DNA from: Paenibacillus sp. YPG26 | Lineage (GTDB): Bacteria; Bacillota; Bacilli; Paenibacillales; Paenibacillaceae | NCBI RefSeq assembly: GCF_023704175.1 | Contig: NZ_CP084530.1 | Location: 1,324,001-1,388,000, forward strand | Length of the DNA stretch: 64,000 bases | Direction: 5' to 3' | In this document: positions 4,099 to 60,491 of the stretch, piece by piece | Numbering within the stretch: position 1 is the first letter of the stretch | How the letters are laid out: every line of letters starts with the position of its first letter | The notes under the pieces: model-generated | What the model saw: only the letters and a program-made list of their open reading frames with translations | Told to the model about the DNA's origin: nothing | The model's database searches: none | Position numbers and translations under genes: made by a program

Positions 4099-5037
4099 TT
4101 GACTCGGACCCGATCTATTCTTCGTAAGTTGAAATGGTTTTTCCTATGCTTAGTTGTTCTAGTTATCGCAGGCATTACGTATGAACAAATTTCAGAGCAT
4201 GTAACCCGGAACAAATACCAGCCCCCGGGCAGGCAGATTGATGTTGGCGGGTACAAGCTGCATATGGTTGAGGAAGGTAAGTCTGCCGGTCTGCCGACCG
4301 TGGTTCTGGAGTCAGGACTCGGAGTCCCGAATCCTAGTGAGGATTGGAGCAAGGTTCGGTCCAGGCTTGCCCAGGTAACCAAGGTAATCAGTTATGACCG
4401 GGCAGGATATGGATGGAGTGACCAGGCAGATTCAGAGCGGACGGCTTCAGCTTCGGCACAGGATCTGCACAAGCTATTGCAGGCGTCAGGCAACCCCGGC
4501 CCGTATGTGCTGGTCGCACATTCTTATGGCGGATTTATCGCTCAAATGTTCGCTTCACTGTATCCCGAGGATACCGCCGGTCTCGTCATGATTGACAGCT
4601 CCCAGGTTGGTCAGCAGCTCAGCTTCTCAGAAGGTCAGCTGCTTCTTATGCAAGCTTCCAGGATAACGGGTGTGAGTCGTCTTGCCGGAACCTTGGGACT
4701 TGTTCCTATGCCCGATCAGGATAAGGTGTCCAAGGATCTTTTCTACCAAATGGCCTTCAACCGCAACCATACCAGCGAGCTCCGGAACATGATGACAAAG
4801 TCAAAGGATCAAGTTCAGACAGTGGAGTCACAGGGCTTTGGCAGCTTGCCTCTAGCTGTGCTTGCCGTTCCGAACGAATATGCGGACTGGCTGGATATGC
4901 AGAAGAAGATGTCGGGTCTTTCCACGAACAGTACCTATCACGTGGTCCAGAATTCCACCCATTTTGTTCAGAAAGACCAGTTAGATCTTGTTGTTGATAC
5001 TGCCCTCAACATGCTGAAGGAGATCGGTACGAACTAA
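4099..5037 (+). CDS. Membrane-anchored alpha/beta hydrolase
   Basis: The protein has 312 residues and begins with TTG, 9 bases after AAGGAG; no better ATG exists. Residues 13-30 form a hydrophobic anchor or uncleaved signal after a basic start, placing the catalytic part outside the membrane. The fold signature is the nucleophile elbow HSYGG (Ser near residue 142), with an 'SYDRAGYGWSD' strand-loop before it and a C-terminal 'STHF' supplying the catalytic His. An ester, amide or haloalkane-type substrate cannot be chosen from sequence. It stands alone between the c-di-GMP gene and sigK. Confidence 0.85.
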   Translation: MTRTRSILRKLKWFFLCLVVLVIAGITYEQISEHVTRNKYQPPGRQIDVGGYKLHMVEEGKSAGLPTVVLESGLGVPNPSEDWSKVRSRLAQVTKVISYDRAGYGWSDQADSERTASASAQDLHKLLQASGNPGPYVLVAHSYGGFIAQMFASLYPEDTAGLVMIDSSQVGQQLSFSEGQLLLMQASRITGVSRLAGTLGLVPMPDQDKVSKDLFYQMAFNRNHTSELRNMMTKSKDQVQTVESQGFGSLPLAVLAVPNEYADWLDMQKKMSGLSTNSTYHVVQNSTHFVQKDQLDLVVDTALNMLKEIGTN

Positions 5038-5112
5038 TGATATAGACGATAGTTCAAGGTACAGATCATCAATTTTTTGAATGCCGTACAGGCACGCCTG
5101 GGCGGCCGCCCA

Positions 5113-5120
5113 CATAGAAT
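5113..5120 (+). promoter_or_regulatory. Possible mother-cell sigma (E/K) -10 element for sigK
   Basis: CATAGAAT at 5113-5120 resembles the CATAnnnT -10 element of sporulation sigma factors E and K. It would start transcription at about 5126, downstream of the upstream GTG at 5124 and 43 bases before the TTG start favoured here. The -35 part is not convincing. The identical octamer precedes the collagen-like spore-surface locus at 24043-24050. Confidence 0.35.
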
Positions 5121-5168
5121 GAAGTGACCGCAGACCGGTTGCACGCATTTATGCAGGAGGTGGCACCA

Positions 5169-5870
5169 TTGCCCGGATTGTTCACGACAATTGCCTTGTT
5201 CATCAAACAGTTGACCCTTCTCGTGTCTTATGTCAAAAATAATGCTTTTCCCCAGCCGTTAACCGAGGAAGAGGAAGCGAAGCATCTCCAGCGCATGGCG
5301 GAAGGCGACCCCGTCAGCCGCAATATTCTGATTGAGCATAATCTTAGGCTTGTGGCCCACATCGTCAAAAAATTTGACAATACCGGCGAAGATCTGGAGG
5401 ACTTGATCTCCATCGGTACGATTGGCCTGATCAAAGCGATTGAGAGCTTCCGGCTGGGCAAAGGCACCAAGCTGGCGACTTTCGCGGCCCGCTGCATAGA
5501 GAACGAGATTCTGATGCACCTGCGGTCACTCAAGAAGACGAAGAAGGATGTCTCCCTGCATGACCCGATTGGGACGGATAAGGAAGGGAATGAGATTACC
5601 TTAATCGATATCCTCGGCTCCGAGAACGATGATGTCGTCGAGCGGGTGCAGCTGAAGATGGAGAAGAGCAAGATCTATCAGAACCTGGATATTCTGGATG
5701 AGCGTGAGCAGGAGGTAATCCGGGGTAGGTTCGGGCTGGATCAGGGCGGTGAAGAGCGGACGCAGCGGGAAATCGCGAAGGAGCTTGGAATTTCGCGGAG
5801 TTATGTGTCCAGAATTGAGAAAAGAGCACTCATGAAGCTGTATCATGAGTTTTATAAGGCGAAGCGGTGA
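5169..5870 (+). CDS. sigK: Sporulation sigma factor K, intact pro-sigma-K
   Basis: This is the late mother-cell sigma factor that drives spore coat and maturation genes. From TTG 5169 the protein has 233 residues and matches remembered B. subtilis SigK along its length, including the membrane-associated pro-sequence that SpoIVFB removes. TTG 5169 is chosen because AGGAGG lies 8 bases upstream and the N-terminus then lines up with Bacillus; a GTG at 5124 would add 15 unusual residues. Region 2 (LVAHIVKKF to [13 protein letters not shown]) and region 4 helix-turn-helix ([24 protein letters not shown]) are intact. The gene is not split by a skin-type element here, but two degraded partial copies lie 2-3 kb downstream. 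Confidence 0.95.
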
Positions 5871-5876
5871 GAGAGG

Positions 5877-5902
5877 CCCGGGATGGAGATCCCGGGTTTT
5901 TG
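5877..5902 (+). terminator. sigK terminator
   Basis: A CCCGGGAT / ATCCCGGG stem (5877-5884 with 5889-5896) and GGAG loop are followed by TTTTT. The same hairpin is duplicated in the first sigK remnant at 8175-8199. Confidence 0.9.
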
Positions 5903-6145
5903 TTGTTATTAATTCTGGAAAGAGCTAGCCCGGTGCACTCCGATGGCGCAATGGTTTCGAACAAGATGAGACCTAGTACGATTACTGGGCGCGGCAATGA
6001 TCCCAAGTAGATGGGGGAGAATCTTGACGGACTATGCCAACGATTTTTATTTTAGATTCAGATTAGGAACTGAGTTGTCAGGAATAATTGATAAAAAGTT
6101 CTACCGCAACATTATCCAAGATACCTGCGCCTGATTCATAATATA

Positions 6146-7027
6146 ATGAACACTATTATATCTCGGACAAAGAAGGTGCAGATATTGACTCGTGAAGTAA
6201 GAACCGTGGTCTTCGACACGGACCTAGACTTTGAAGCCTATCAGTTTGAGGGGATTATGCAGAAGTTCCCCAACCATTTTCACGACTATTACGTAATTGG
6301 GTTTATTGAGCAAGGCAAGCGGCATTTGGTCTGCAACCAGGAAGAATATATACTAAATAGCGGGGATGTAATTATCTTCAATCCTCACGACCCTCACGCC
6401 TGTGCGCAGATTGACGGAAGCGCCTTGGACTACCGCTGCATCAATATTCAGCCGGAGGTCATGCGTAAATATGTGCTGGAAATAACAGGCCAAGAGTATA
6501 CGCCGCGGTTCACACAGAACGTACTTTACCAGAGCGAGCTGGCTCTTCCCCTTCATGACCTGCATCAGATCATTCTGGAGGACAAGGAGGATTTCCACAA
6601 AGAGGAGTTGTTTCTGTTCCTGCTGGAGCAGTTGCTGAATGAATACACGGATGCGGACTTTCCTCCTCCCGCACAGGAACTGACCTATGAGATTATAACC
6701 ATTTGCGAATACATGGAGTCCCATTATACGGAGAGCATTACCCTCAATCAATTAAGCGACTTAGTCGGATTAAGCAAATATCACTTGCTGCGGCTGTTCA
6801 CCAGACAAAAAGGCATCTCCCCCTATTGCTATCTGGAGACCCTGCGGATTAATTACGCCAAGCGACTGCTGGGGCAAGGTATGCCCCCCTTGGAGGTTGC
6901 AGGTCAGACCGGATTCAGTGACCAGAGCCATTTTACGAATTTTTTCAAAAAGCTGATCGGTCTCACTCCCAAGCAATATATGCTCATATTCACTCAGCAA
7001 GCACGTACAGAGGATACCCCCTTATGA
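6146..7027 (+). CDS. AraC-family regulator (cupin sensor plus HTH)
   Basis: The protein has 293 residues. An N-terminal AraC-type cupin (about 20-115) contains a metal or ligand pocket pattern '[13 protein letters not shown]' and '[12 protein letters not shown]'. The C-terminal double helix-turn-helix (about 190-290) ends in the typical '[22 protein letters not shown]' region. The ATG at 6146 has no clear ribosome site; TTG 6185, seven bases after AAGGTG, is a plausible alternative that removes 13 residues. The stop overlaps the start of the EamA transporter by four bases (ATGA), so the pair is one transcription unit and the regulator probably controls the transporter in response to its substrate. 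Confidence 0.88.
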
Positions 7028-7944
7028 CGGAGGAACGCAAGACAACCATGGGGCACTCGCTCGCTTTGCTGACCATTCTGATCTGGGGAACGACTTTTAT
7101 CTCCACCAAGATCCTGCTTATTGACTTTATGCCTATAGAAATTCTCTTCTTCCGCTTTCTGCTTGGTTATGTGGTGCTGATGTTGATCTACTCACGTCCC
7201 GTGCGAACAGAATCCTTTCGGGAAGAGCTGCTGTTCATGGCGGCTGGATTATGCGGGGTAACCTTATATTTTCTTGTTGAAAATATCGCGTTGGTATATA
7301 CCCTTGCCTCCAATGTAGGCGTGATTGTGTCAATTGCTCCCTTTTTGACAGCCGTATTGGCACATTTCTTCCTGGAGGGAGAAAAGCTACATCGACAATT
7401 CCTCTTGGGATTCGGGATAGCCCTCACCGGGATTGTACTAATTGGACTGAATGGGAGTTACGTCCTGAAGCTTAATCCGATTGGAGATCTGCTGGCCTTC
7501 CTGGCTCCTGCGGTCTGGGCAATCTATTCCGTACTAATGCGTAGAATCAGCCAGCGGAACTACCACATCATTGGGAGTACACGCAGAGTGTTCTTCTATG
7601 GATTACTGTTCATGATTCCTGCCCTTTTCCTGTCCAAATTCCACCTTGGCCTGACCCGCTTTGGAGATATAGGAAATATCATCAACATGCTCTTTCTTGG
7701 CCTGGGAGCTTCAGCTCTGTGTTTTGTGACCTGGAACCGGGCCGTTGGCCTTTTGGGTGCGGTTAAAACTAGCGTGTATATCTATCTGGTGCCTGTCATT
7801 ACCGTAGCCGCATCTGCATTGATTCTGGAGGAGCAAATAACCTGGGTAACGGGGCTGGGAACGGGACTTACACTGCTTGGGTCGTTAATTTCAGAAGGGA
7901 AAAGCAGTAAGGTTATATCTTCACGCAGGGAACGCTCGGTGTAA
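7024..7944 (+). CDS. EamA/DMT-family transporter
   Basis: This 306-residue membrane protein has ten predicted helices arranged as two EamA repeats. The typical first-helix motif '[12 protein letters not shown]' and a conserved '[13 protein letters not shown]' in the second half are present. Members export amino acids or other metabolites, or move nucleotide sugars; the substrate cannot be named. The start overlaps the AraC-family regulator's stop, so the two are translationally coupled. No terminator is obvious downstream, where the sigK remnant begins 96 bases later. Confidence 0.9.
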
Positions 7945-8040
7945 AAAGGGACAAGTATTAAGAGGAAAGCTTGGTGCTTAAGTTACACTGTTAAGTTAAC
8001 CAAATGAATTCACAAAGTGTACCATCATGGCAGCAAGATA

Positions 8041-8203
8041 TTAATCGATATCCTCGGCTCAGAGAACGATGATGTCGTCGAGCTTGGAATTTCGCGGAGT
8101 TATGTGTCCAGATTTAGAAAAGAGTGCTCATGAAGCTGTATCATGAGTTTTATAAGGCGAAGCGGTGAGAGAGGCCCGGGATGGAGATCCCGGGTTTTTG
8201 TTT
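8041..8203 (+). pseudogene. sigK remnant 1 (3' end with internal deletion and copied terminator)
   Basis: Bases 8041-8080 match 5601-5640 of sigK with a single difference. The match then jumps 141 bases and continues from 5782 to beyond the sigK stop and through its terminator, with only a few mismatches. The left edge is abrupt: nothing upstream of 8041 matches sigK. The edge lies 8 bases downstream of an AATGA (5589-5593) in the parent gene. The copy encodes nothing useful. The high identity suggests a recent duplication from the local sigK or gene conversion with it. Confidence 0.9.
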
Positions 8204-8252
8204 TGAAGAGATGTTCAAATATAAAAACTAAATCAAACAAAGTATCAAGAAA

Positions 8253-8477
8253 GTGAAAATTATCAAGTATTCTATAGAGTCTCTGTTGAGTGAGATCTTT
8301 AATCCAGTAGTGAAGGACCTTGCTAAATTAATTCGATTAACGGGTGATCGGGCTAAGTTGGACGCGAAAGCAAACGGGACAAATATAGTATATATAACAG
8401 CTGAAGGGCAAATAGTGAAAGAATATAGCTCGGGGAAGATCGAGAAAATGAATGAACAGGAATTTAAGCATGAATGA
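8253..8477 (+). pseudogene. Remnant small gene upstream of a Zeta-like toxin
   Basis: A 74-codon frame begins with GTG and has no good ribosome site. It ends overlapping the next ATG by four bases (ATGA), the coupling typical of small two-gene modules. The peptide is charged and ends 'KIEKMNEQEFKHE'. I remember similar small proteins preceding Zeta-like ATPases in Firmicutes but cannot name a family. It is very A+T rich compared with its surroundings. It may be intact, but the partner gene is deleted internally, so it is treated as part of a dead module. Confidence 0.4.
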
Positions 8478-8728
8478 GACAAGTGCAACCATGTTTGTTG
8501 TTCGCTGGTAATAATGGAAGTGGTAAGAGCACCATTCGTAGTATGAATAACCTTTTGTCTCACTTAGACCATATAGATCAACTAGTCGTTATTGATAACA
8601 GTACAACAGATGGTGAAATTATTCTTGGAGCAGACAATAGTGGAGTGAAATATTATTTAGATGAATTGCCTGAATGGACGCAAAAAATCGATCGACAATT
8701 ACAGAACAGAAACAGAACAAAAAAGTAA
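8474..8728 (+). pseudogene. Zeta-like toxin / AAA ATPase with large internal deletion
   Basis: The 84-residue frame starts with a hydrophobic strand and a Walker A loop (FAGNNGSGKST, about residues 10-20), typical of Zeta-type kinases that phosphorylate cell-wall sugar nucleotides. The sequence then passes directly into what looks like the C-terminal part of such a protein ('QLVVIDNSTTDGEI', '[11 protein letters not shown]'). Family members are usually around 200 residues, so roughly 100 central residues appear to be missing in frame. Walker A is retained but the rest of the active site is gone, so the product is presumed inactive. It lies between the two sigK remnants. Confidence 0.6.
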
Positions 8729-8780
8729 ACCAATTCGAATCGGGAACGATCGTAAGTGGTTTGCTTTCTTGCATATTATT

Positions 8781-9096
8781 GTGTCCATAGCCTTAAAGAA
8801 TTTGATAACACCAGGAAAGTATGGAGACTTAATCTCCGTTGGTACGATTTGCCTGATCAAAGCCATTGAGAGCTTTCAGCTGGGCGAAGGCACCAAGCTT
8901 GCGACTTTCGCCGCCCGTTGCATAGAGAACGAGATTTTGATGCACCTACGTTCACTCAAGAAGACCAAGTAGGATGTCTCCCTTCATGACCCGATTGGGA
9001 CGGTTAAGGAAGCTAATGAAACTACCTTAATCGAGGTGTCATGAGCTTAATAAGGCGAAGCGGTGCGTGGATGGAAACCCGATTTTATTTTTTAAT
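8781..9096 (+). pseudogene. sigK remnant 2 (middle and extreme 3' end)
   Basis: From about 8781 the sequence follows sigK from the 'LVAHIVKKF' codons through 'HLRSLKKTK', where AAG has become TAG (8970-8972). It then continues through the equivalent of 'VSLHDPIGT', an AATGA and 'TLIE' before jumping to the last codons (ATAAGGCGAAGCGGTG) and a decayed terminator. Divergence from the intact gene is clearly higher than in remnant 1, with a 3-base indel and many third-position changes. It is therefore an older copy or came from a related strain. Confidence 0.88.
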
Positions 9097-9351
9097 AGAT
9101 CTGAAAGTATAACTAAAGCCTGACATAGTAGGTAGTTAAAATGTCAACGTGTCTTTAGACCGTTTTTTATTGTTGTGGAAAGAAAGACAATTGATAGTCT
9201 TTTCAGGGGAATCAACGCAGAAATTAATGATAACAAAATATTAAGTCGAAATTTGAAGTAAATGGAACTATATACATATTTATATTACTTTGTTTTCCAT
9301 TTATTGTGTATATTGGTGAACTTAACTTTGACATACATTGGAGGGAAAAAG

Positions 9352-12300
9352 ATGGATTTCAAAAAGTGTTTTTGTGTTTTTTTGCTCATTTTATGTTTGG
9401 TCTTATCGTCTTTCCCGAAAGTCACGGTACAAGCTGAATTGATAGATGCTTCCTCGAATGTGGGAGGTGATCAAATTCCTGCAGTTACCAAGAAGAATAA
9501 CATTCTAGATCTCGACTTGCCGAGTGGTACTAATATTGATTTAACAACTTTAGAAGGGGGAGACAACATACAGAGCCGGTTTGAAACTCAGGCTGTTGAT
9601 AAGAATGTGATTGTCATTTCTCCAGGTGAAAGTCTTGAATTTGTGAATCCTACTCCAGCGGTTAAATCAGTTTATACAAATGCAAGTCTTAAGAACGGAA
9701 TTTTGTTCGATTATGCAGGGTATTCAGCTAATGGAAAAGCCACATACATTGATATGGATTCCGCTTCCCTTACACCTGTGATACCAGCAAATGGTGGCAG
9801 TTTAATAATTACTGCGCTTAATTCTCAAGTTAATCTTAAAGTTCCTGTTGATGTAATTTATGGTCACTCAGCAGAGCCAGCTTTGTTAAGAAAACCATTA
9901 GGCCGTGGTGAGAACTACCAGATTACTAACGTGGGAGAAGGTAACCTTCGTATTATGACAGACGCAACTTCAAGTAACGGAAAGCGACTTAGCTATGCAA
10001 TCTACAAAGTGGATGGCAATGTTAAATCATCGAATCTTGAGACGAATTCGGATCTATCAAGCTCTCTTAGTTCAGGAGAGAATATTGTAGTTACCGGAGA
10101 ATCGGACCAACCTATCGTTATAGGAACTTATTATAAAAATGCTGTTGGGCAAGAAATATCCGAACCTGCTTATGATAGCATTCAACTTCTTAAAGGAGAA
10201 AGCTATCAATTTACAAATATAGGTAAGTTCCCTGATTCAATTGAAAACAATGGGACGGTAATGGATAAGTTTGATTACGTAATTTATAAACCAGACGGGA
10301 GTGAACTTTCACGGGGGACAAATACCAGTTCTAAGCCATCATTTGCCCCTGGTCATCGTATTGTTATCACTTTAGTTACAGATAATCCAGTTACTTTTGG
10401 AGGACCCTATCGTTCGTTTGTCGGAAATTCTGTTAACGGCAATGCGATAAGCAGAGTAACACTATCGCTTGGACAATCTTATTTATTCCGTAACAACGGG
10501 TCGCTAACAAATCCAGTTAATAATAATGCAAGATTGGTAGGAAGTTTGTACGACTATGTGGTGTATCAGGGGGATGGTAATTACTACTCAAAAGGCTTCG
10601 GTAGTAAAACAACTCCAAATCTGCCTGCTGGCGGTTATGCCATAATAAATGTCGTATCAGGTCCCCCTGTTACTTTTGATTATACGGATGACTTCTCGGC
10701 TAAACCGAGCGATGAACCAGCCTTCTTCAAGATAACTCTTTCCAAAGGTGAAAGTTACGAATTTATTAATATAAGTGAATATACACGGACATTAGATAGT
10801 ACCGCAACGAAGGATAGCAGATTCGATTGGGTAGAGTATTATCCCGATGGCACCCAACAGGGGACACAGACTAATACTTATAACAATCCGCTTGTTTCCA
10901 AGGGGAACAGAATAGTTGTTACGACCGTAACCGATGCCCCAGTTACCTTTGGAGTTGCATATAGATTATTCTCTTGGCGTGATAAGCCTGGTGAAGCAAT
11001 TTCCCATCAAATAGTCCGATCTGGAGAATCGTATGTGTTCAGAAATAAGGGTAGCAAAACCGTATCCATTGTTAACGATGCCCAAGCTACAGAGAGAGCA
11101 TATGATTATGTTTCGTATACGCCCGAAGGACTGGTAGAAAATAGAGGTTTTAACGAGAAAGTAAAAACAATCTCAATTCCTGCACAGGGTTCCTTGATTG
11201 TGACAGGACAATCGGATAACCCTGTTACTTTTGATTATACAGAAACAATTACTGTGGAACAGGCCAACCACCCAGCGATGACCAGAGTGACTTTGAATCA
11301 AGGGCAATCCTATTTCTATAAGAATATTAGAGACAAGGTTGATTATTTGTACTCTGATGCGATTCAGAATCTAAATGACTTTTCATATATAATCACAAAG
11401 CCAGATGGTAATGTCCACTCTCAGGGCCCAGTTAAGTTCAATATCGTTATGATTCCTGCTGGATATACGATTAAGGTAACAGCCAACTATTTGCATCCAA
11501 CCATATTTGGAGCAGTCTTCACTTCATTTCTAGCTTCAGCGGCCCAGGAAAGTTCCTTATCAGAGAAAACAATAAAAACAAACGAGAGTTATATTTTTAC
11601 AAATCCAGATGCCAAAAATCAAGTGTTAACCAAGAAAAGTGGCAGCAATTCTTCCTTATTTGATTACGTAATATACTCGTCAAAAGGAGAAGTTACAAAA
11701 ATGGGGCTTAATATGGATAGTAACATCTCTATCCCCGCTGGAAGTTCGGCCGTAGTCACATCGGTTTCGCCGGAACCAGTTACTCTACAATATGTCAAAC
11801 CCGTTGAAGCTGAATCCGTAGCAGAACCGGCATTCTTAAAAAAGCTGTTGAAGACAGGTGAATCTATTACATTTTCAAATGTTAGCAGCTACGATACTCA
11901 GCTTAAGACAGATGCCAGTATTAATAACAATCAATACTATGATTACACGATTATAAAAGCTGATGGCTCCCTTTTTAAGGAAGGTGCTCATGCGACTGGG
12001 GAGTTTGTTGTTCCTTCAGGCGATAATATCACGGTTAAAGTAAGTTCAACAAACCCGATTTCGTTTGCTGGACCTTATCGGATTTTTAAATCGGAGGATG
12101 CTTTAGAGTTTGTATTTGAGAAGTTGTACGAGAACCAGCCTCTAAACGTTACGAAGGATGCTGGTAATTGTGGTTATTATTTGTTCACACCAGCTCAAAC
12201 CGGAAAATACCGTATTGCGGCAAAAGAAAATAACAACTCAGCCCAGAACCCTGTAATTACTATTTTTAGTGATCCTAAACTGCAAAATGCTCTGGTAGTG

Positions 12301-12363
12301 AGTAACAGTGATGAGAAAATATATGGCAATGTGGTCATACCCCTGTCAAGTAGACAGGTCTAA
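9352..12363 (+). pseudogene. Giant secreted repeat protein, 5' part, cut by an IS3-family element
   Basis: ATG 9352, after GGAGGG, starts a signal peptide (about 1-28, cleavage near VQA). The 1003 codons before the insertion contain nine tandem units of about 95 residues. Each has a 'GESYxFxN' start, a 'FDYVxYxPDG' centre, and an 'AGxxIVVTxVS..PVTF' end, which looks like an all-beta extracellular domain. Units 3-9 alternate between two linker types. The last 90 or so codons resemble a pre-peptidase C-terminal-like beta domain that is interrupted: the frame runs a few codons into the insertion and stops at 12361-12363. The remainder is at 13604-13874. A shortened secreted protein could still be made. 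The function is unknown; adhesion or delivery of the adjacent Rhs protein is speculation. Confidence 0.75.
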
Positions 12364-12373
12364 AAAGACATGT

Positions 12374-13240
12374 TTAAGCAGCAACCGTTTCTCGGTATTC
12401 AACCGGGGAACGGTTGTTTAGTTTTTTCTGGAATCTACTTTGGTTATAAAATGAAATATACTCGCGCACCTGTTTTTCTACCTCAGCTAAGGTTTGGGGA
12501 TTGCTTAAATATATCTTTTCCGTTTTCAGATGAGAAAAGAAGGATTCTATGCATGCGTTGTCCAGACAGTTTCCGCGTCTGGAATGGCTTCCGAGGATCC
12601 CAAGTCCAGTAAGTTTACGGTTAAATGGTTTGGAGGTGTATTGAAATCCCTGGTCTGAATGGAGAATAGCTCCCTCCAAATTTACATCTTTACTTAACGC
12701 GTCTAGCGTTTCGTTAACCAGAGCCAGATCGTTTCGTTCCGAAAGGTGCCAGGCTACGATCTCGTTGTTATACAGATCCTGGATTGCCGAAAGGTAGACA
12801 AACCGTTCCCCAACCCGTATGTAGGTAATGTCGGTAGCCAGTTTAGATAAAGGAGTATCCGCCTGAAATTGACGATCCAGCAGATTGGGATTCACGACAG
12901 AAGCCTGTTTACCGAAAAAACGACGCTTCTTTCGAATGACCGACTGAATCCCCAATTTCTTCATAATTCGGTAGACCCTTTTGTGGTTAACTACGAGGCC
13001 TTCTTTCCGTAAAGCAACCGTCATACGCAGATAACCAAAGTAGGGATGAAGGCGGTGGAGCGACAACATATGAGCTTCCAGTAGCTTGTCCCTTTCTTTA
13101 CGCTGCCTGGCTGTCTGCTGAGCCCTTCTCCATTTGTAATAGCCTGCTCGTGAAACATGGGCTAACTCTAATAGCCATTTCAGTGAATACCTCTCTCGCA
13201 TTTCCTCGATGATTCCGAACCTGGTTGCTTTCTTCGTCAC
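12374..13240 (-). CDS. IS3-family transposase OrfB (DDE integrase core)
   Basis: This frame has 288 residues with a GTG start overlapping the orfA stop (GTGA). It holds an HTH_21-like region near residues 50-100 and an rve integrase core with the DDE triad: Asp in 'ATDITYI', Asp in 'HSDQGFQY', and Glu in 'CIESFFSHLKTE'. The usual product in this family is an OrfAB fusion made by -1 frameshifting, and a fitting slippery site is present. The frame appears intact. Confidence 0.92.
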   Translation of the reverse strand: MTKKATRFGIIEEMRERYSLKWLLELAHVSRAGYYKWRRAQQTARQRKERDKLLEAHMLSLHRLHPYFGYLRMTVALRKEGLVVNHKRVYRIMKKLGIQSVIRKKRRFFGKQASVVNPNLLDRQFQADTPLSKLATDITYIRVGERFVYLSAIQDLYNNEIVAWHLSERNDLALVNETLDALSKDVNLEGAILHSDQGFQYTSKPFNRKLTGLGILGSHSRRGNCLDNACIESFFSHLKTEKIYLSNPQTLAEVEKQVREYISFYNQSRFQKKLNNRSPVEYRETVAA

Positions 13241-13536
13241 TCCTTGTGCAGATTTGGATACTGCTTTTTTAAATATTCAATCTCCGCTCGTAGATACGCC
13301 ATTTCTTCTTCCATGCTGGAAAACTTCGTTTTCGGTCGTCCTCGTCTTGGGCTAGTTGGCTCTAAAATCTCACCTGTTCGATATTTTGTTGCCCAGGTTT
13401 GTACCTGAGACTTATTACGAACGCCCAACTGTTTCGCCACTTCACGAATACTTCTCTGCTCCTCGTTCACCAACCGGACTGCCTCCATCTTTAATTCCAA
13501 GGAGTACTTCCGAAAGGTTTGCCCCTTTTTGGCCAT
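13237..13536 (-). CDS. IS3-family OrfA (helix-turn-helix)
   Basis: The 99-residue protein starts at ATG 13536, eight bases after GGAGGGG; a longer in-frame start at 13572 has no ribosome site. It has a homeodomain-like helix-turn-helix ('YSLELKMEAVRLV' then 'SIREVAKQLGVRNKSQVQTW') and a C-terminal coiled coil ('EEEMAYLRAEIEYLKK') for dimerisation. It recognises the terminal inverted repeats and forms the N-terminal part of the OrfAB transposase. Confidence 0.9.
   Translation of the reverse strand: MAKKGQTFRKYSLELKMEAVRLVNEEQRSIREVAKQLGVRNKSQVQTWATKYRTGEILEPTSPRRGRPKTKFSSMEEEMAYLRAEIEYLKKQYPNLHKE
13264..13270 (-). other. Programmed -1 frameshift site (A6G) in the IS element
   Basis: On the minus strand the heptamer AAAAAAG is in the A_AAA_AAG phase of orfA near its end. 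A -1 slip there moves reading into the orfB frame with no stop before the orfB start, which would give an OrfAB fusion as in other IS3-family members. Confidence 0.7.
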
Positions 13537-13603
13537 GAAAAATCCCCTCCGCTCAACAAGAATTAAATCCATCTTACCAGATGTCTTTTTTCTCTTGTCT
13601 ACT

Positions 13604-13874
13604 AGAAGGGGATAATACCAATGATATTGTCTTTATTGAAGCTGATTTACTAGCTGGAACTAAATACTATGTAAAAGTCGAAGAGAAGAATGGTAAGGAA
13701 TTGCAGCTATTTCTAGCTGCAGCAATCCTGAAAGTAACTCCAAATGCTACTTATGACTACAGCCCTACGGGAAGATTAATTAAAGTAGTATTCCCGACGG
13801 GGGACGTTATTTTATTTGAATACGATGCAAATGGCAACTTAAAGAAAAAGACCAAGCAAGTATATCCTTTCTAA
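13604..13874 (+). pseudogene. Giant secreted repeat protein, 3' part after the IS element
   Basis: The open frame resumes after the insertion with 'EGDNTNDIVFIEADLLAGTKYYVKVEE', which reads as the second half of the beta domain cut at 12347. About 45 residues with two YD-repeat-like turns follow ('YDYSPTGRLIKVVFPTG', 'FEYDANGNLKKK'). It ends 15 bases before the Rhs gene start. Without its own start it is probably not translated. The YD-like tail links this gene to the Rhs protein next to it. Confidence 0.75.
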
Positions 13875-13889
13875 TCCAGAGGTGATCAA

Positions 13890-16800
13890 ATGCTAAAACG
13901 TATATTAGTATCCATCTTGTGCTTATCAATTACTTTTACGGGCTTAGGGACAATAGCAAATGCAGTTAAAGATGAACAGCAAGCTTTAAGTTCAAATGGG
14001 AATAGAAAGCAGGAGATTGTAACCCTCTCAGGAATTCTGGAGAAGTTCCATAAAGAGGAGTTGTGGTTAGACCAACAGCTTGCCGAAGGTTACTCCCTGT
14101 ACGAAATTTATACAGCGCTAGATCAATCGGGCGGAGATCTTAGTGCCTATAAAACCATTATTAATAAAAACGGAACAAAAACGAAAGATCCTCAAGTACA
14201 AGTAAATAAGTTAGAGACTAGCTCAGCTTTGACTTTAAATCGTCCCAGCTCATTGGCTGCACAGACGGATTATGACCAAGCAGCAGTAGACCATTTGCCT
14301 GTAGATCAGCCCTGGTCCCCATATGTGGAGAGTTATGGTAGCGATTCGGTATCCGTAGCGACAGGCGATCTAAATGTTGGTTATACCGACTTTATATTGC
14401 CTGGTTTAATCCCGTTCTCCTTGAACCGGGTATATGACAGCTCCAAAGCCAATAATGATATTTCCGTAAAGCTTAGTGGCGGTAATTACAAAAATGAAGC
14501 GGGAACACGAAGAGAGGAGTCTGATTCGCAGCTAGGCAGAGGATGGAGATGGGATCAGCCTTACATTATGACACGGGACAGCCGCAGATTTATGTATTTT
14601 CCGGGAATCGGCACATACCGTATACTTACTGATCTATCCTTGCAGGGCTACAAGTATAAGAATCTCAAACTTGCTGATGACACAAGCGCAGTTGTTAATG
14701 GGAGAACAAGTAAATACAAACTCGCAGTTTTAAATGGACCAAACTATTATTTTGATGATGCCGGATATTTGATTCTAATTAAGGATGATTACAATAACCG
14801 GGTGGATTTCAGTTATACCAAGCAGGGAACTGGAAATGTCCTCACTAGGGTGAAAAACAGCGATGGAAACGAGCTTGTTTTTACTTATACAGATACGCAA
14901 GTAACCGTGAAACAAACGGGTACAGAGCTTGTTAAGGTATATACGCATGCTATGGATGAAGACCGGCCGGTGCTGACTAAAGTAACGGATGCTCTTGGGA
15001 AAGAAACCAAGTATTATTACAGTATGCCTGAAGCGCGGTTTAACTTTTTAGCCAATTTGGTTGGTCAGTTGGATCAACAATCTTGGGACAAATCTGCACT
15101 TCTGACACGTATTGTATCTCCGACCTCTTCAATAACGGATTTTGATTATGCCCCATCTCTGAAAACGATTGGCAGCTATGCAACTAGGTTTGTATTTAAA
15201 ACGACTAAACGCCAAGATGCCTATGCGGTTCTGAGAGGCGATATTTTAGTCTATAAAAGATTATTCAAGTACACCAACGAGGACTTAACAAGTTTCGGGA
15301 AGGATGCAAAATGGATTACAACTATTGAAGGACCGCATTCCAAACAAACTTTCCAACTTCGAAAATTATTTGATGGTGCAACACAGCCAGATATCCACTA
15401 TCTTGATGAATACCGAAGCGACGGAGACCAGACTGCGTCGGTTGAGAATCTGACTTATGATTCATCAAAAAGAAACCTTCCAATAAAAGTTGAAGACTGC
15501 TTTATTCAAAACGGAAAGAAATCTGAGTCAGTGACCGGAGAATACAAATATGATGAGAATGGGTTCATACTTTCGCTGAAGAAAAGTACCGGCCAAGAGA
15601 CTACTTATGACTATCAAAAATCAGCTGAACCGTACTTTTGGAATCAGCCTAGTAGAGTGAAAACCAAGCTTGCTGACAATCAATTCAGGGTTGAAACTAA
15701 TACTTATGATTCGCTAGGGGGATTAAAGCAGTCGTCTATCTCTGAAACGGGCTCAATTAACAAACTTCTGTCTCAGGCTAATTACCAATACGATAGCTAT
15801 GGAAACCCGGTTGTTGTTGAGGTGAAGGATGATTCAAGGACAATATCAACAAGACAATCCTATGAATCACCTTTCGGACATCATCTGCTTACAAAGGAGT
15901 CTACCCAAGTAACGGGTATTGATAACTCTTCATCAACGGTATCGAGTCAATATGAGTACTCCCGTACAGGGGCACTTTTCTTGGGAATTGACGAAACAGG
16001 GAATAAGACGTCATATAAATACGATAAGACCGGACGTATAGTTCAAACTAGCTACAGTGATGGTTCTACCGAAAAAGTCGTTTATGATGATAATTTGAAC
16101 ACAGTAATAACCACCGATCCTAGCGGATTGGTTACAATCAACAAATATAATCCTGTAGGGTTTCTTGCTCAACAAGTGCGGGATGATACAGTATTCCAAT
16201 ATTTTTATGATACTGAAGGCAATACCGAGGAGTATATCGATGCTGAAGGTAATAAGATCAGTTATAAATACGATTCAATGGATCGATTGGTTCAAACTAG
16301 TTATGCAGATGGCTCGAAGGATCTGGTTGGCTATGATTTAGTTAATCGGACTACGACCTATACAGATGCATCAGGATATAAAAAGAAGGAGACGTATGAT
16401 CTTCTCGGACAGACTGTATCTATAGAGGAATTTAATAATGAGGCGAATATCGTATTAGAGAAACGGGGGTACAACCTAGTTGGTAATGTAATCTCGGTTA
16501 CGGACGGGAAAAATCAGCAAACAATTTATGGGTATGACGGATTAGGAAGAATAATATCCGTAACCGATCCCAAGCAACAGAACACGAAGTATACGTACAG
16601 CCTTTCCGGTAACCTAACTAAAATTCAGCTTTCAGACCGGTCTGAGATTAATAAGCAGTACGATGAATTAGGCCGGGAAATACTACATGTTAATCAAGGT
16701 AATCAATCCAGAAAGTATTATTATGATGCTCGAGGAAATATCGCCAAGTTTGTGGATTTCTCTGGAAAACCCAAAGAATATCAGTACGATAGCGATAATA

Positions 16801-18773
16801 ACTTGACTCAAATTAAGGCTTCGGAAAATACAATAAACTATACATTTGATTTCTCTGGTCGCCGGACCACAATGCAGGATTCGCAAGGTACAACAAGATA
16901 TACTTACGATCCAACGGATGGTTCCTTAATAACATTAAAATATCCGGATGGGACAAAAATTGAATATAGTTATAACACGCAAGTACGGACAGGTTACACA
17001 TTGGTGTCTCCTAATGGGTCTGCAACACAGATCCAGGGTAATTTGGACGAGTTAAATAGAGTCAAGGATCTTGAAGTGTCCAGCAAGAATGGAACTGCTG
17101 CCGCATTGGCTGCCACACCTGGAGACAAGCTATCGTTTGAATATGGATCAAACAAATTACTAAAAAAATTAACAACTGCAAGTGGTACAGGGATAGTTTA
17201 TAGCTATAAAGGATATGATCTGTCGGGTATATCTGTAGAACAAGGCGGTAATCAAAAGCAGCAGTTCAATTATCAATACGATAACAATAAGAACATAATT
17301 AGTCGTACTCAGAATCAAATATCAGATTCTTTCGATTATGATCCATTAAATCGTATCCAGAAAGAAAGCACCAAAGAGAACACTAGAACTTACAGCTACG
17401 ATAACAAGGGAAATCGAATTGATGTAGAGGGATCCAAAATTTCGGGTATGCAGAATGCGGAGTATACATTTGACAGTCTGGATCGTCTAATAGGGGTAAA
17501 AGGAGAGGGGAAAGAAGTCTCTTACCGGTATAATGGAGATGGCCTATTATATGAACGTAAGGAAAAAGATAAAAAGATTCGTTACTATTATGATGAAGAA
17601 GCCAAATTAATTGCCGAGGCAGAAGTCAAACCAGACGGATCACCTAAGCTCTTATATGTTTATGTTTATGATTTGGGAGGACAATTATGGGCCCGTAAAG
17701 ACAAGAATACAGGCGCCATGCAGTATTACCAATTCAATGGCCATGGAGATGTGATTGGTCTAACCGACAGCAAAGGAACCGAACTCAATAGTTATACTTA
17801 TGATGTATGGGGTAATCCAGAGAGTAGCAAAGAAACAGTCCCCAATATATTCAGATATTCTGGTGAGTACTGGGATGAGACCACTGGGCTTCAGTACTTG
17901 CGGGCCCGCTGGTATGACCCGGGAATTGGAAGATTTATAGCTGAAGATACGTATGAAGGTGATGTTTCTAATCCCCTGAGTCAAAATTTGTATACGTATG
18001 TAGAGAATAACCCGCTGACCAATGTGGATCCAAGTGGGCACGAAAGAATAGTAGTATCGGGAGGAGATTATTCTGTCGATTCTCATGGAGGATATGATTA
18101 TAATTTCATCGAACCAGCACTTAAAAAGATACGTGAATTACGGAAAGCCAATCCTAGGGAGACGATTGCATGGCTTATTGCTAATGCTGGATGGAGTAAT
18201 AGTGATTGGGCTAACTTTTCGAAAGCTGTTAGCTCTTTGAATGTTAATATAGTGGGATTAAGCACTGCAGACGATTTCATTAACTACATTAACAATAAAA
18301 CTGGTGGTAAAAGCAGAATGAATGATAAAATAACTAGTTTTACACTTTTCTCACACGGACTTACCGGAATTATACCACTAGGGTATAACTATGATTCTTC
18401 ATACAATCAGAATTTAAATTTGACAACATCTAAGATAAAAAAAATTAATGGCAATGCATTTAGTAATCCCCTTTCATGGTTTTACTCGTGCAATACAGGA
18501 ACTGACGGCAATGATAGTTTCGCTAAGGCTTGGGTTAACCAAGTTGGTGGGACAACTTATGCATATGAAGGTAAAACAACATATCAATATATGATGTATC
18601 CAAGAGAGTATTATACTTGGAAAGCAAAAATCAACAGAGCACTAGGCGGTAAATGGGCTGCTTACGCTGAATTTGTTGAATTAGCGAGGAAGTCATATGG
18701 ATTTTCGATTATCGGTTCTGCGCGATATCCTGAAGCTGCAAGCGGAGCGACGTTATTAAAGTTTACAAGGTAA
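13890..18773 (+). CDS. Secreted Rhs/YD-repeat polymorphic toxin with caspase-like C-terminal tip
   Basis: The 1627-residue protein starts at ATG 13890 after AGAGGTG. It has a signal peptide (1-26) and a DUF6531-like entry segment ('VATGDLNVGYTDFILPG', about 153-170). Many YD repeats follow (about 550-1270), then the Rhs core end ('GDVIGLTDSKG', 'YLRARWYDPGIGRFIAEDT', 'LYTYVENNPLTNVDPSG', ending near residue 1383). After DPSG a 245-residue variable tip follows. It has 'LFSHG' (His1489) and 'FYSCNTG' (Cys1534) spaced like the dyad of clan CD cysteine peptidases (DUF4347/caspase-like). Such proteins encapsulate and deliver a toxic tip to competitors. The downstream small gene probably gives immunity. 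The peptidase call is inference. Confidence 0.85.
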   Translation: MLKRILVSILCLSITFTGLGTIANAVKDEQQALSSNGNRKQEIVTLSGILEKFHKEELWLDQQLAEGYSLYEIYTALDQSGGDLSAYKTIINKNGTKTKDPQVQVNKLETSSALTLNRPSSLAAQTDYDQAAVDHLPVDQPWSPYVESYGSDSVSVATGDLNVGYTDFILPGLIPFSLNRVYDSSKANNDISVKLSGGNYKNEAGTRREESDSQLGRGWRWDQPYIMTRDSRRFMYFPGIGTYRILTDLSLQGYKYKNLKLADDTSAVVNGRTSKYKLAVLNGPNYYFDDAGYLILIKDDYNNRVDFSYTKQGTGNVLTRVKNSDGNELVFTYTDTQVTVKQTGTELVKVYTHAMDEDRPVLTKVTDALGKETKYYYSMPEARFNFLANLVGQLDQQSWDKSALLTRIVSPTSSITDFDYAPSLKTIGSYATRFVFKTTKRQDAYAVLRGDILVYKRLFKYTNEDLTSFGKDAKWITTIEGPHSKQTFQLRKLFDGATQPDIHYLDEYRSDGDQTASVENLTYDSSKRNLPIKVEDCFIQNGKKSESVTGEYKYDENGFILSLKKSTGQETTYDYQKSAEPYFWNQPSRVKTKLADNQFRVETNTYDSLGGLKQSSISETGSINKLLSQANYQYDSYGNPVVVEVKDDSRTISTRQSYESPFGHHLLTKESTQVTGIDNSSSTVSSQYEYSRTGALFLGIDETGNKTSYKYDKTGRIVQTSYSDGSTEKVVYDDNLNTVITTDPSGLVTINKYNPVGFLAQQVRDDTVFQYFYDTEGNTEEYIDAEGNKISYKYDSMDRLVQTSYADGSKDLVGYDLVNRTTTYTDASGYKKKETYDLLGQTVSIEEFNNEANIVLEKRGYNLVGNVISVTDGKNQQTIYGYDGLGRIISVTDPKQQNTKYTYSLSGNLTKIQLSDRSEINKQYDELGREILHVNQGNQSRKYYYDARGNIAKFVDFSGKPKEYQYDSDNNLTQIKASENTINYTFDFSGRRTTMQDSQGTTRYTYDPTDGSLITLKYPDGTKIEYSYNTQVRTGYTLVSPNGSATQIQGNLDELNRVKDLEVSSKNGTAAALAATPGDKLSFEYGSNKLLKKLTTASGTGIVYSYKGYDLSGISVEQGGNQKQQFNYQYDNNKNIISRTQNQISDSFDYDPLNRIQKESTKENTRTYSYDNKGNRIDVEGSKISGMQNAEYTFDSLDRLIGVKGEGKEVSYRYNGDGLLYERKEKDKKIRYYYDEEAKLIAEAEVKPDGSPKLLYVYVYDLGGQLWARKDKNTGAMQYYQFNGHGDVIGLTDSKGTELNSYTYDVWGNPESSKETVPNIFRYSGEYWDETTGLQYLRARWYDPGIGRFIAEDTYEGDVSNPLSQNLYTYVENNPLTNVDPSGHERIVVSGGDYSVDSHGGYDYNFIEPALKKIRELRKANPRETIAWLIANAGWSNSDWANFSKAVSSLNVNIVGLSTADDFINYINNKTGGKSRMNDKITSFTLFSHGLTGIIPLGYNYDSSYNQNLNLTTSKIKKINGNAFSNPLSWFYSCNTGTDGNDSFAKAWVNQVGGTTYAYEGKTTYQYMMYPREYYTWKAKINRALGGKWAAYAEFVELARKSYGFSIIGSARYPEAASGATLLKFTR

Positions 18774-60221: not shown

Positions 60222-60491
60222 GAAGCCTGCTCGGCACAGAGATGTCCATAAGGTATCGCGTTCACAACGGCATGGATGACACGAACGCGTGGATAAGAGA
60301 AACCCTTTTTTGAAGATTGGTTGTGTTCCATTACTTCCATTTTCAAGAGAGTGGTTTCTTTTTTTTGGCTGTTATTAAGAAATCGAAGGAACTATACGCA
60401 GGCCCATCTCATCATGTACAATAGGAAGATATATACAGGCTTAAAGTTTATTGTTATTTTGTGAACATTTTGATGAGGGGGAAAGTCAGGC

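Follow-up and report, generated by a model that had tools for sequence, protein, structure and literature searches.

sigK and its displaced pieces

The DNA analysed here is a stretch of 64,000 nucleotides (nt) from Paenibacillus sp. YPG26, called the window below, in which sigK, the gene of the late mother-cell sigma factor, is followed by two decayed pieces of sigK. The host genome is one contig of 3.97 Mb. When sigK was used as a query against this genome, exactly five matches were obtained at E ≤ 1e-3, one being the intact gene and the other four belonging to two remnants. The sequence-only reading of this DNA, which had listed an intact sigK at 5169-5870 and two decayed copies, was borne out by this search; it had overlooked the internal deletions of both remnants and the start of remnant 2 at nt 197 of sigK behind a foreign arm. 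The features concerned are listed by window position:

5169..5870, + strand: intact sigK with a TTG start, the sole full-length match in its own genome
5365..5368, + strand: recombination core TCAA, an unoccupied attachment site (attB), in the intact sigK at nt 197-200, codon 66 (alignment of split with unsplit sigK)
8041..8200, + strand: remnant 1, an older sigK 3′ end with terminator, internally deleted (own-genome search, alignments)
8768..8792, + strand: decayed foreign half-arm of 25 bp, the P side of an attachment site of the attR type (junction alignments; fixed-place scoring on a matrix of 79 other arms)
8793..9065, + strand: remnant 2, a displaced sigK 3′ half from the core onward, internally deleted (own-genome search, alignments)

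The product of the intact gene, for which a longer open reading frame (ORF) with a GTG start begins at 5124, scores 369.9 bits against the NCBIfam equivalog TIGR02846 (spore_sigmaK; cut-off 298.65). Remnant 1 consists of sigK nt 433-475 at 8041-8083 (98%, E 1.2e-13) and nt 613-702 at 8080-8168 (96%, E 1.0e-33); it continues past the end of sigK into the sigK terminator and is followed by about 90 nt resembling the flank of another genome, G017. Remnant 2 consists of nt 199-440 at 8795-9034 (87%, E 1.4e-78) and nt 672-701 at 9036-9065 (90%, E 6.8e-4). The likeness of the remnants to sigK is not due to chance, and of the genes compared it is their own sigK that both resemble most. An Rfam search of window 4900-9300 found nothing.

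Junction site and integrase

The sequence-only reading had taken the pieces for a possible fossil of a mobile element that crosses over at AATGA (nt 421-425 of sigK; crossover at window 5589-5601), with the left edge of remnant 1 as the junction. The codon is that of the Bacillus site, as AATGA insertions at position 423 are described for B. cereus in the available text of PMC10745906, yet the motif is not the junction here. Remnant 2 reads through AATGA unbroken and the recurring edge lies at nt 197, and AATGA was ruled out on these grounds. A sigK query in 58 relatives returned full-length sigK genes together with 3′ pieces whose left edge recurs at nt 189-200. In a count over all 140 rows of sigK matches from 25 genomes, 75 of 114 partial pieces have their left edge at nt 184-202, where about 3.3 would be expected if edges were uniform, and five start at nt 410-440 (in G427, G436, G428, G432, and G441; the G436 piece follows an internal deletion in one copy). 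The left edge of remnant 1 (nt 433) is not matched by any recurring edge. Because the recurring left edge falls at nt 184-202 and remnant 2 starts there with an arm, the working site is, on the alignments, nt 197-200 of sigK (codon 66), which is window 5365-5368 and far from 5589-5601. Crossover sites of the genus at such a distance had been named by the sequence-only reading itself as an outcome that would speak against it. Insertion into sigK followed by decay thus stood and the crossover point did not: the observation was confirmed, and the interpretation, partly supported, was right in kind and wrong in site.

The loci retrieved contain 80 distinct junctions of arm and sigK, one of which is that of the window. 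A foreign arm with the consensus aTTTACnTtGcTTcGTGTtCACAACc directly precedes the TCAA of the core in the junction alignment, and in the window the core of remnant 2 (8793-8796) lies right behind the decayed arm. By alignment, G027 and G025 have a matching arm behind the same toxin module as the window. A model of the arm plus 60 nt of sigK, built from the 79 other junctions, matches the window at 8772-8848 with E=3.9e-9 (best reversed control 0.47), although much of this score comes from sigK itself. When the arm was scored at its fixed place before the core, with the matrix of the 79 other arms, 8 of 127,950 window positions scored as well, and shifting the arm by 1-2 nt gave a far lower score. 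The G025 arm, which is outside the matrix, is the best of 39,752 positions in its locus; the G027 arm, itself in the matrix, is the best position of its locus. Arm matches numbered 13 in 7 of 40 genus genomes, with none in the control, and a scan of 84,980 genomes for the arm pattern gave 43 stretches, all 43 from Paenibacillus. As a separate observation, the top window match of an arm-only model is 60252-60268 (E=0.11), far from sigK, and is probably due to chance.

Where sigK is truly split, the opposite junction is seen, for example ...CATATCGTCAACACGTTGTGAACACGAA, and the two arms are near inverted repeats around the core. Inverted-repeat arms around a core are the layout of serine-integrase attP sites. 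In G010 (putative P. timonensis), a gene for a protein of 547 amino acids ends at the arm. The protein has Resolvase (PF00239), Recombinase (PF07508), and zinc-ribbon (PF13408) domains, all above their cut-offs, and by this domain content is a large serine recombinase (integrase); its nearest solved match is the TP901-1 integrase. Against NCBIfam it scored 140.7 bits for CcrB, 89.1 for CcrC, and 57.5 for CcrA, below the cut-offs of 900, 900, and 700. At E ≤ 1e-60, 39 of 394 family genomes have a match to this integrase, 27 at 47% identity or more and 12 at 31-34%. A sigK 3′ half lies directly behind the integrase at 15 of the 27 loci (L162-L188); the integrase is upstream of a complete sigK at five and beside or before a 5′ piece at three, while four have no sigK within the stretch examined. 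It is present in 8 of 33 genomes tested, six of which lack a full-length sigK match, and absent at E ≤ 1e-60 from 15 of 17 genomes with an intact sigK plus an array of 3′ halves. The host halves of split genes join to a frame that is open as far as they were joined (nt 690) in all five cases (G010, G421, G429, G343, and G330), which is necessary, not sufficient, for an excision that restores sigK.

A stationary, integron-like integrase upstream of sigK (before a complete sigK at 5 of 27 loci and beside a 5′ piece at three others, plus G434 and G439) was also considered. It was set aside, and is kept only within the first alternative weighed below, because some such genomes show a 5′ half further upstream. 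Among viral contigs, 11 stretches match the short arm pattern, none with sigK, and none match the attL pattern.

Several elements carry a sigK of their own. Seven of 19 integrase genomes have a complete sigK flanked by a 5′ and a 3′ piece on the same contig and strand (in one of the seven, G253, the 5′ piece is nt 1-108 only). In G343, G330, and G344, the ATG of the element sigK lies 52-61 nt behind the core, with a ribosome-binding site and hardly any space for a promoter; judged from this spacing, it is apparently expressed under the host promoter (promoter capture). These element genes are open throughout, and their nt identity is 69-73% to the host 5′ part and 74-77% to the host 3′ part (the latter in two genomes; G344 not included). 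The promoter-capture pattern has nine matches in 8 of the 394 family genomes, with sigK at three (L276, L277, and L280) and none at the other six. A fossil attL was found about 640 nt upstream of an intact sigK in G424 (E=3.8e-6; best control 0.24), and a decayed attL upstream of an intact sigK was read by eye in G425. The idea that the element sigK escapes attB by recoding was dropped, as its 8-9 mismatches compare with 3-9 in 51 ordinary sigK genes, which is not enough.

In the window itself, a skin-type junction inside sigK is present (attR type, nt 197). Such elements have both attL and attR, and here there is the attR type alone; the element-borne recombinase is missing from the window genome at E ≤ 1e-60 and is present at the same junction in relatives. 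The window is thus at most a fossil of a skin-type sigK-intervening element.

Reading of the locus and its alternatives

The remaining features of the locus are as follows:

6146..7027, + strand: AraC-type regulator (Pfam AraC_binding, HTH_18)
7024..7944, + strand: EamA-type transporter (Pfam EamA)
8253..8477, + strand: antitoxin-like ORF of 74 amino acids, aligning with G027 and G025, with no Pfam family
8474..8728, + strand: broken Zeta-like toxin gene (alignment with the intact G027 gene)
9069..12331, + strand: flank behind remnant 2, 86% to G017, where it lies behind a sigK-type terminator

The toxin pair with a large internal deletion had been noticed from the sequence alone and proved real. 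Both of its genes are complete in G027 and, judging from the alignment, also in G025; compared with these, the window Zeta-like gene is frameshifted close to its start and lacks about 350 nt internally. The window fragment has no Pfam match, PF06414 (Zeta_toxin) included, and the intact G027 homologue scores 30.6 bits (cut-off 22.3). G027 and G025 have no match to the DNA between sigK and the toxin module of the window; the AraC regulator and the EamA transporter are likely the cargo of a younger unit. Judging from G017, 9069..12331 would be the native flank that followed sigK before the insertions.

Window 5365-9068 probably arose by one or more insertions, most likely two, of mobile elements into sigK nt 197-200 through a large serine integrase, followed by decay. 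Each insertion would cut sigK at codon 66, leave the former 3′ half further downstream with one arm of the attachment site of the element in front of it, and supply a sigK sequence from the element, by which a whole sigK remains. In the simplest case, a deletion between the truncated 5′ piece and the element-borne complete sigK would then leave an intact, partly new sigK, the cargo, an arm, and the old 3′ half. Read downstream, the window would hold the current sigK, a first cargo (AraC and EamA), remnant 1 as an earlier sigK 3′ end, a second cargo (the antitoxin and the broken Zeta gene), the attR arm, remnant 2 as the oldest 3′ half, and the native flank. The outer toxin unit, of a kind common to G027 and G025, would be the older one, and the inner AraC/EamA unit, whose arm would have been lost, the younger. 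The junction of arm and 3′ half, its recurrence, the integrase at this junction in relatives, the split genes, and the complete sigK copies inside elements were observed directly; for the window, the upkeep of sigK by an element-borne copy, the two rounds, and the integrase as cutter are inferred. No sign that the window copy can still move was found.

Two further features lie in the flank. Window 12332-13618 is an insertion sequence of IS3 type (ORFs 12374-13240 and 13237-13572; family assigned by eye), which splits a region continuous in G017, where window 9069-12331 and 13619-18013 correspond to L038 4884-8147 and 8143-12537. Window 13890-18773 encodes a very long RHS-repeat protein (PF05593) in the flank that would have followed sigK before the insertions.

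Arrays of 3′ halves are found in relatives. In 17 of the 25 genomes searched among those with the arm pattern, a full-length sigK is accompanied by one or more separate 3′ halves that have the nt-190 edge. Paenibacillus sp. Soil787 (G435) has five same-strand 3′ halves over about 118 kb downstream of sigK, Paenibacillus sp. Root444D2 (G433) has three within about 200 kb, and Paenibacillus sp. V4I3 (G419) has six pieces in a span of about 320 kb, all but one of them with the nt-190 edge, and three elsewhere. The DNA to the left of the arms mostly differs between copies. In eight pairs that share a left flank (picked for its similarity and not independent), the likeness does not extend beyond the core in any of the eight, with 91-98.5% on the left and 74-89% on the right. 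G004, G012, and G022 have 9-10 kb of cargo in common (segments 94.7-98.8%), and their sigK and 3′ halves differ by about 10%; between G012 and G022 there is 1 difference in 40 on the arm side and 12 in 59 on the sigK side. On these alignments, the pattern of the three genomes is horizontal movement with a breakpoint at the core.

Some side observations concern these arrays. A second group of sigK 3′ pieces in V4I3 (G419:C1:3327116-3369393) lies about 3.6 Mb from sigK on the other strand, possibly through an inversion. In several array genomes, a copy of an ATP-binding cassette (ABC) transporter ATPase gene (identified by eye) follows the 3′ halves, for example in L194 downstream of sigK, and is apparently a native neighbour carried along with them. 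Near the sigK array of G024, L036 445-1657 shows spurious ORFs with a repeated peptide motif and is possibly an array resembling clustered regularly interspaced short palindromic repeats.

A number of results weigh against repeated insertion of elements that bring their own sigK. No 5′ half of sigK was found elsewhere in the window genome at E ≤ 1e-3, nor a 5′ half or attL upstream of the window sigK, and an attL model matched in the window only the intact sigK itself, other matches being no better than E=2. Likewise, 14 of 16 array-type genomes have neither a 5′ half nor an attL within 12.8-14.9 kb upstream. The integrase is absent from the window genome at E ≤ 1e-60, and no phage or circular form of the element was found. 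No arm is recognisable at the left edge of remnant 1, and in a blind arm-only scan of the window 8768-8792 is absent among the five best matches. Differences of 4-8 nt are already present in the 40 nt that precede the core in six of the eight shared-flank pairs, which places the divergence step no more exactly than within about 40 nt of the core. Steps off the core were found at nt 138 (G435 and G419), nt 168 (G434 and G439), nt 120 (G423 and G425), and near nt 297 (G009 and G018). In G035 and G007, the downstream DNA is about 99.6% alike and the 3′ half differs by 7.5%, which is not simple co-transfer, and units often resemble each other more in the gene that follows sigK than in the 3′ half. 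For these reasons, homologous exchange among 3′ halves probably also occurs. Finally, G012 and G022 are 97% identical further upstream and 92% in sigK, with a block of 2.4-2.8 kb of unrelated DNA between them on the upstream side of the promoter, and upstream synteny is seen in only 3 of 66 pairs of one clade.

The missing 5′ and attL scars in most genomes, the off-core steps, the mismatch between 3′ half and downstream DNA, and the poor upstream synteny are the reasons why one alternative is retained, although I consider it unlikely. Here a one-sided circle of sigK 3′ half, cargo, and arm, carrying no complete sigK, would enter an intact sigK in an integron-like manner, through a RecA crossover in the 500-bp 3′ half or through integrase-mediated recombination of attB with an attR-like site. 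It would suit arrays with many 3′ halves and few 5′ halves, the mosaic 3′ halves, and an upstream order that is kept to about -237 between G435 and both G419 and G433, and to -119 between the window and G027. It would also suit the finding that in 28 of 29 close pairs (the exception being G011 and G006) divergence is higher in the 3′ part than in the 5′ part, with p<0.01 in 12, although the pairs are not independent and were chosen by a third-position divergence of at most 0.15 in the 5′ part, which favours this outcome. A change point with a likelihood ratio above 10 was found in 13 of 17 pairs, ten at nt 198-264 and three at nt 120-168. But serine integrases are not known to join attB with attR. 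The RecA route predicts identity past the core into the 3′ half, which is not so in any of the eight shared-flank pairs. Moreover, elements with a complete sigK do exist, and one or two array genomes have a fossil attL upstream of their intact sigK.

Plain tandem duplication of sigK with decay, without site-specific recombination, is very improbable. It would account for the closeness of both window remnants to their own sigK and for 15 of 36 displaced 3′ halves scored in array genomes, which are nearest to a copy in their own genome, but the other 21 are nearest to a copy of another species, the DNA left of the arms mostly differs, and the same foreign arm as at remnant 2 stands in dozens of places. 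The sequence-only reading had itself named duplication without a recombinase as the outcome that would speak against it; in relatives, an integrase was found at the junction. A skin-like insertion at AATGA can practically be dismissed: the codon is used in B. subtilis and in B. cereus AH820 and J7/J62 according to the available text of PMC10745906, remnant 1 begins 8 nt past it, and G041, from another family of the order, appears to have a second sigK break at the equivalent codon, but remnant 2 spans it without a break, few pieces start there, and no arm is seen at the edge of remnant 1.

Related systems and meaning

Staphylococcal cassette chromosome (SCC) elements use the Ccr large serine recombinases at one chromosomal target gene, the end of rlmH, and form tandem units with attachment scars. 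The present elements would work alike, and CcrB is the best NCBIfam match of their integrase; they differ in that this match is far below its cut-off and the target is the middle of sigK. Accretion of integrative and conjugative elements and cis-mobilizable elements leaves integrase-less units between attachment scars, with gene ends as targets and few bases duplicated, whereas here 500 bp of a sigma-factor gene are duplicated.

A close counterpart is island IV of B. cereus bv. anthracis, 22 kb long, inserted at sigK position 195 and excised in sporulation (PMC10745906). By its description in the available part of that source, its insertion position agrees with the nt 197-200 site, it has no phage genes, it carries type I restriction-modification cargo, and its recombinase has 545 amino acids against 547 here. 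The differences are that the split there is single and clean and that the recombinase lies beside the 5′ piece, while here it mostly adjoins the 3′ piece; the text available makes no mention of arrays or of a spare sigK. The skin elements and their recombinases in sporulation (PMC6957869, PMC5025042) are similar, as far as these sources could be consulted, in that the B. subtilis skin (SpoIVCA) and the C. difficile skinCd (CD1231/CD1234) use a large serine recombinase, insert inside sigK, and split the gene, as in some Paenibacillus. However, the B. subtilis skin occupies a different position in sigK (PMC10745906, available text), and in the window and the arrays an intact sigK is present next to the displaced halves, with some elements bringing a complete sigK. 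The accessible parts of further reports describe a phage integrated in sigK of Alicyclobacillus (PMC13141910), phage-borne sigma factors of sporulation type (PMC9429907), and an inversion, not an insertion of the present kind, that hits sigK of P. larvae (PMC12453123). In the titles and abstract openings of the open-licence literature, no report of sigK arrays or element-borne complete sigK in Paenibacillus was found.

Other families show other breaks. In G041, from the same order, sigK apparently has two breaks, one near nt 341 next to a SpoIVCA-like recombinase and one near nt 424-431, where L079 starts at a contig end (pieces L078 3109-3448 and 18188-18288; L079 1-279). In G053, G040, and G052 (L075, L076/L077, and L083), sigK is split near nt 332-348, a third position, and recombinases 53% alike adjoin the split in G053 and G052.

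Among the genes of the G010 element are Wadjet genes of the JetA and JetD types and genes for a Zeta toxin and a Fic protein. The 25 commonest families among 36 cargo proteins from five units and one split element (part of their ORFs) include type I restriction-modification, helicases matching Hachiman models, ABC sugar transport, GH42, GH32, and a GerA protein.

The window alone is a modest fossil; the parent process is a new form of sigK-targeting elements. I lean, somewhat cautiously, towards a wider picture in which elements of Paenibacillaceae split sigK yet carry a complete gene for sigma-K, in some cases promoterless behind the left junction and driven by the host promoter. Through successive rounds, the sigma factor would be replaced, and cargo and former 3′ halves would accumulate over hundreds of kb, with the window as a small fossil of the process. 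Known sigK interruptions are removed to repair the gene, whereas here sigK appears to be a site of accretion, with a growing island of restriction, toxin-antitoxin, Wadjet, and sugar-use genes. From the arrays, the succession of insertions into a single essential developmental gene can be read. The elements appear able to exchange the sigma factor of the host in part or in whole, and this makes it testable whether an element can take over the late mother-cell sigma factor of its host.

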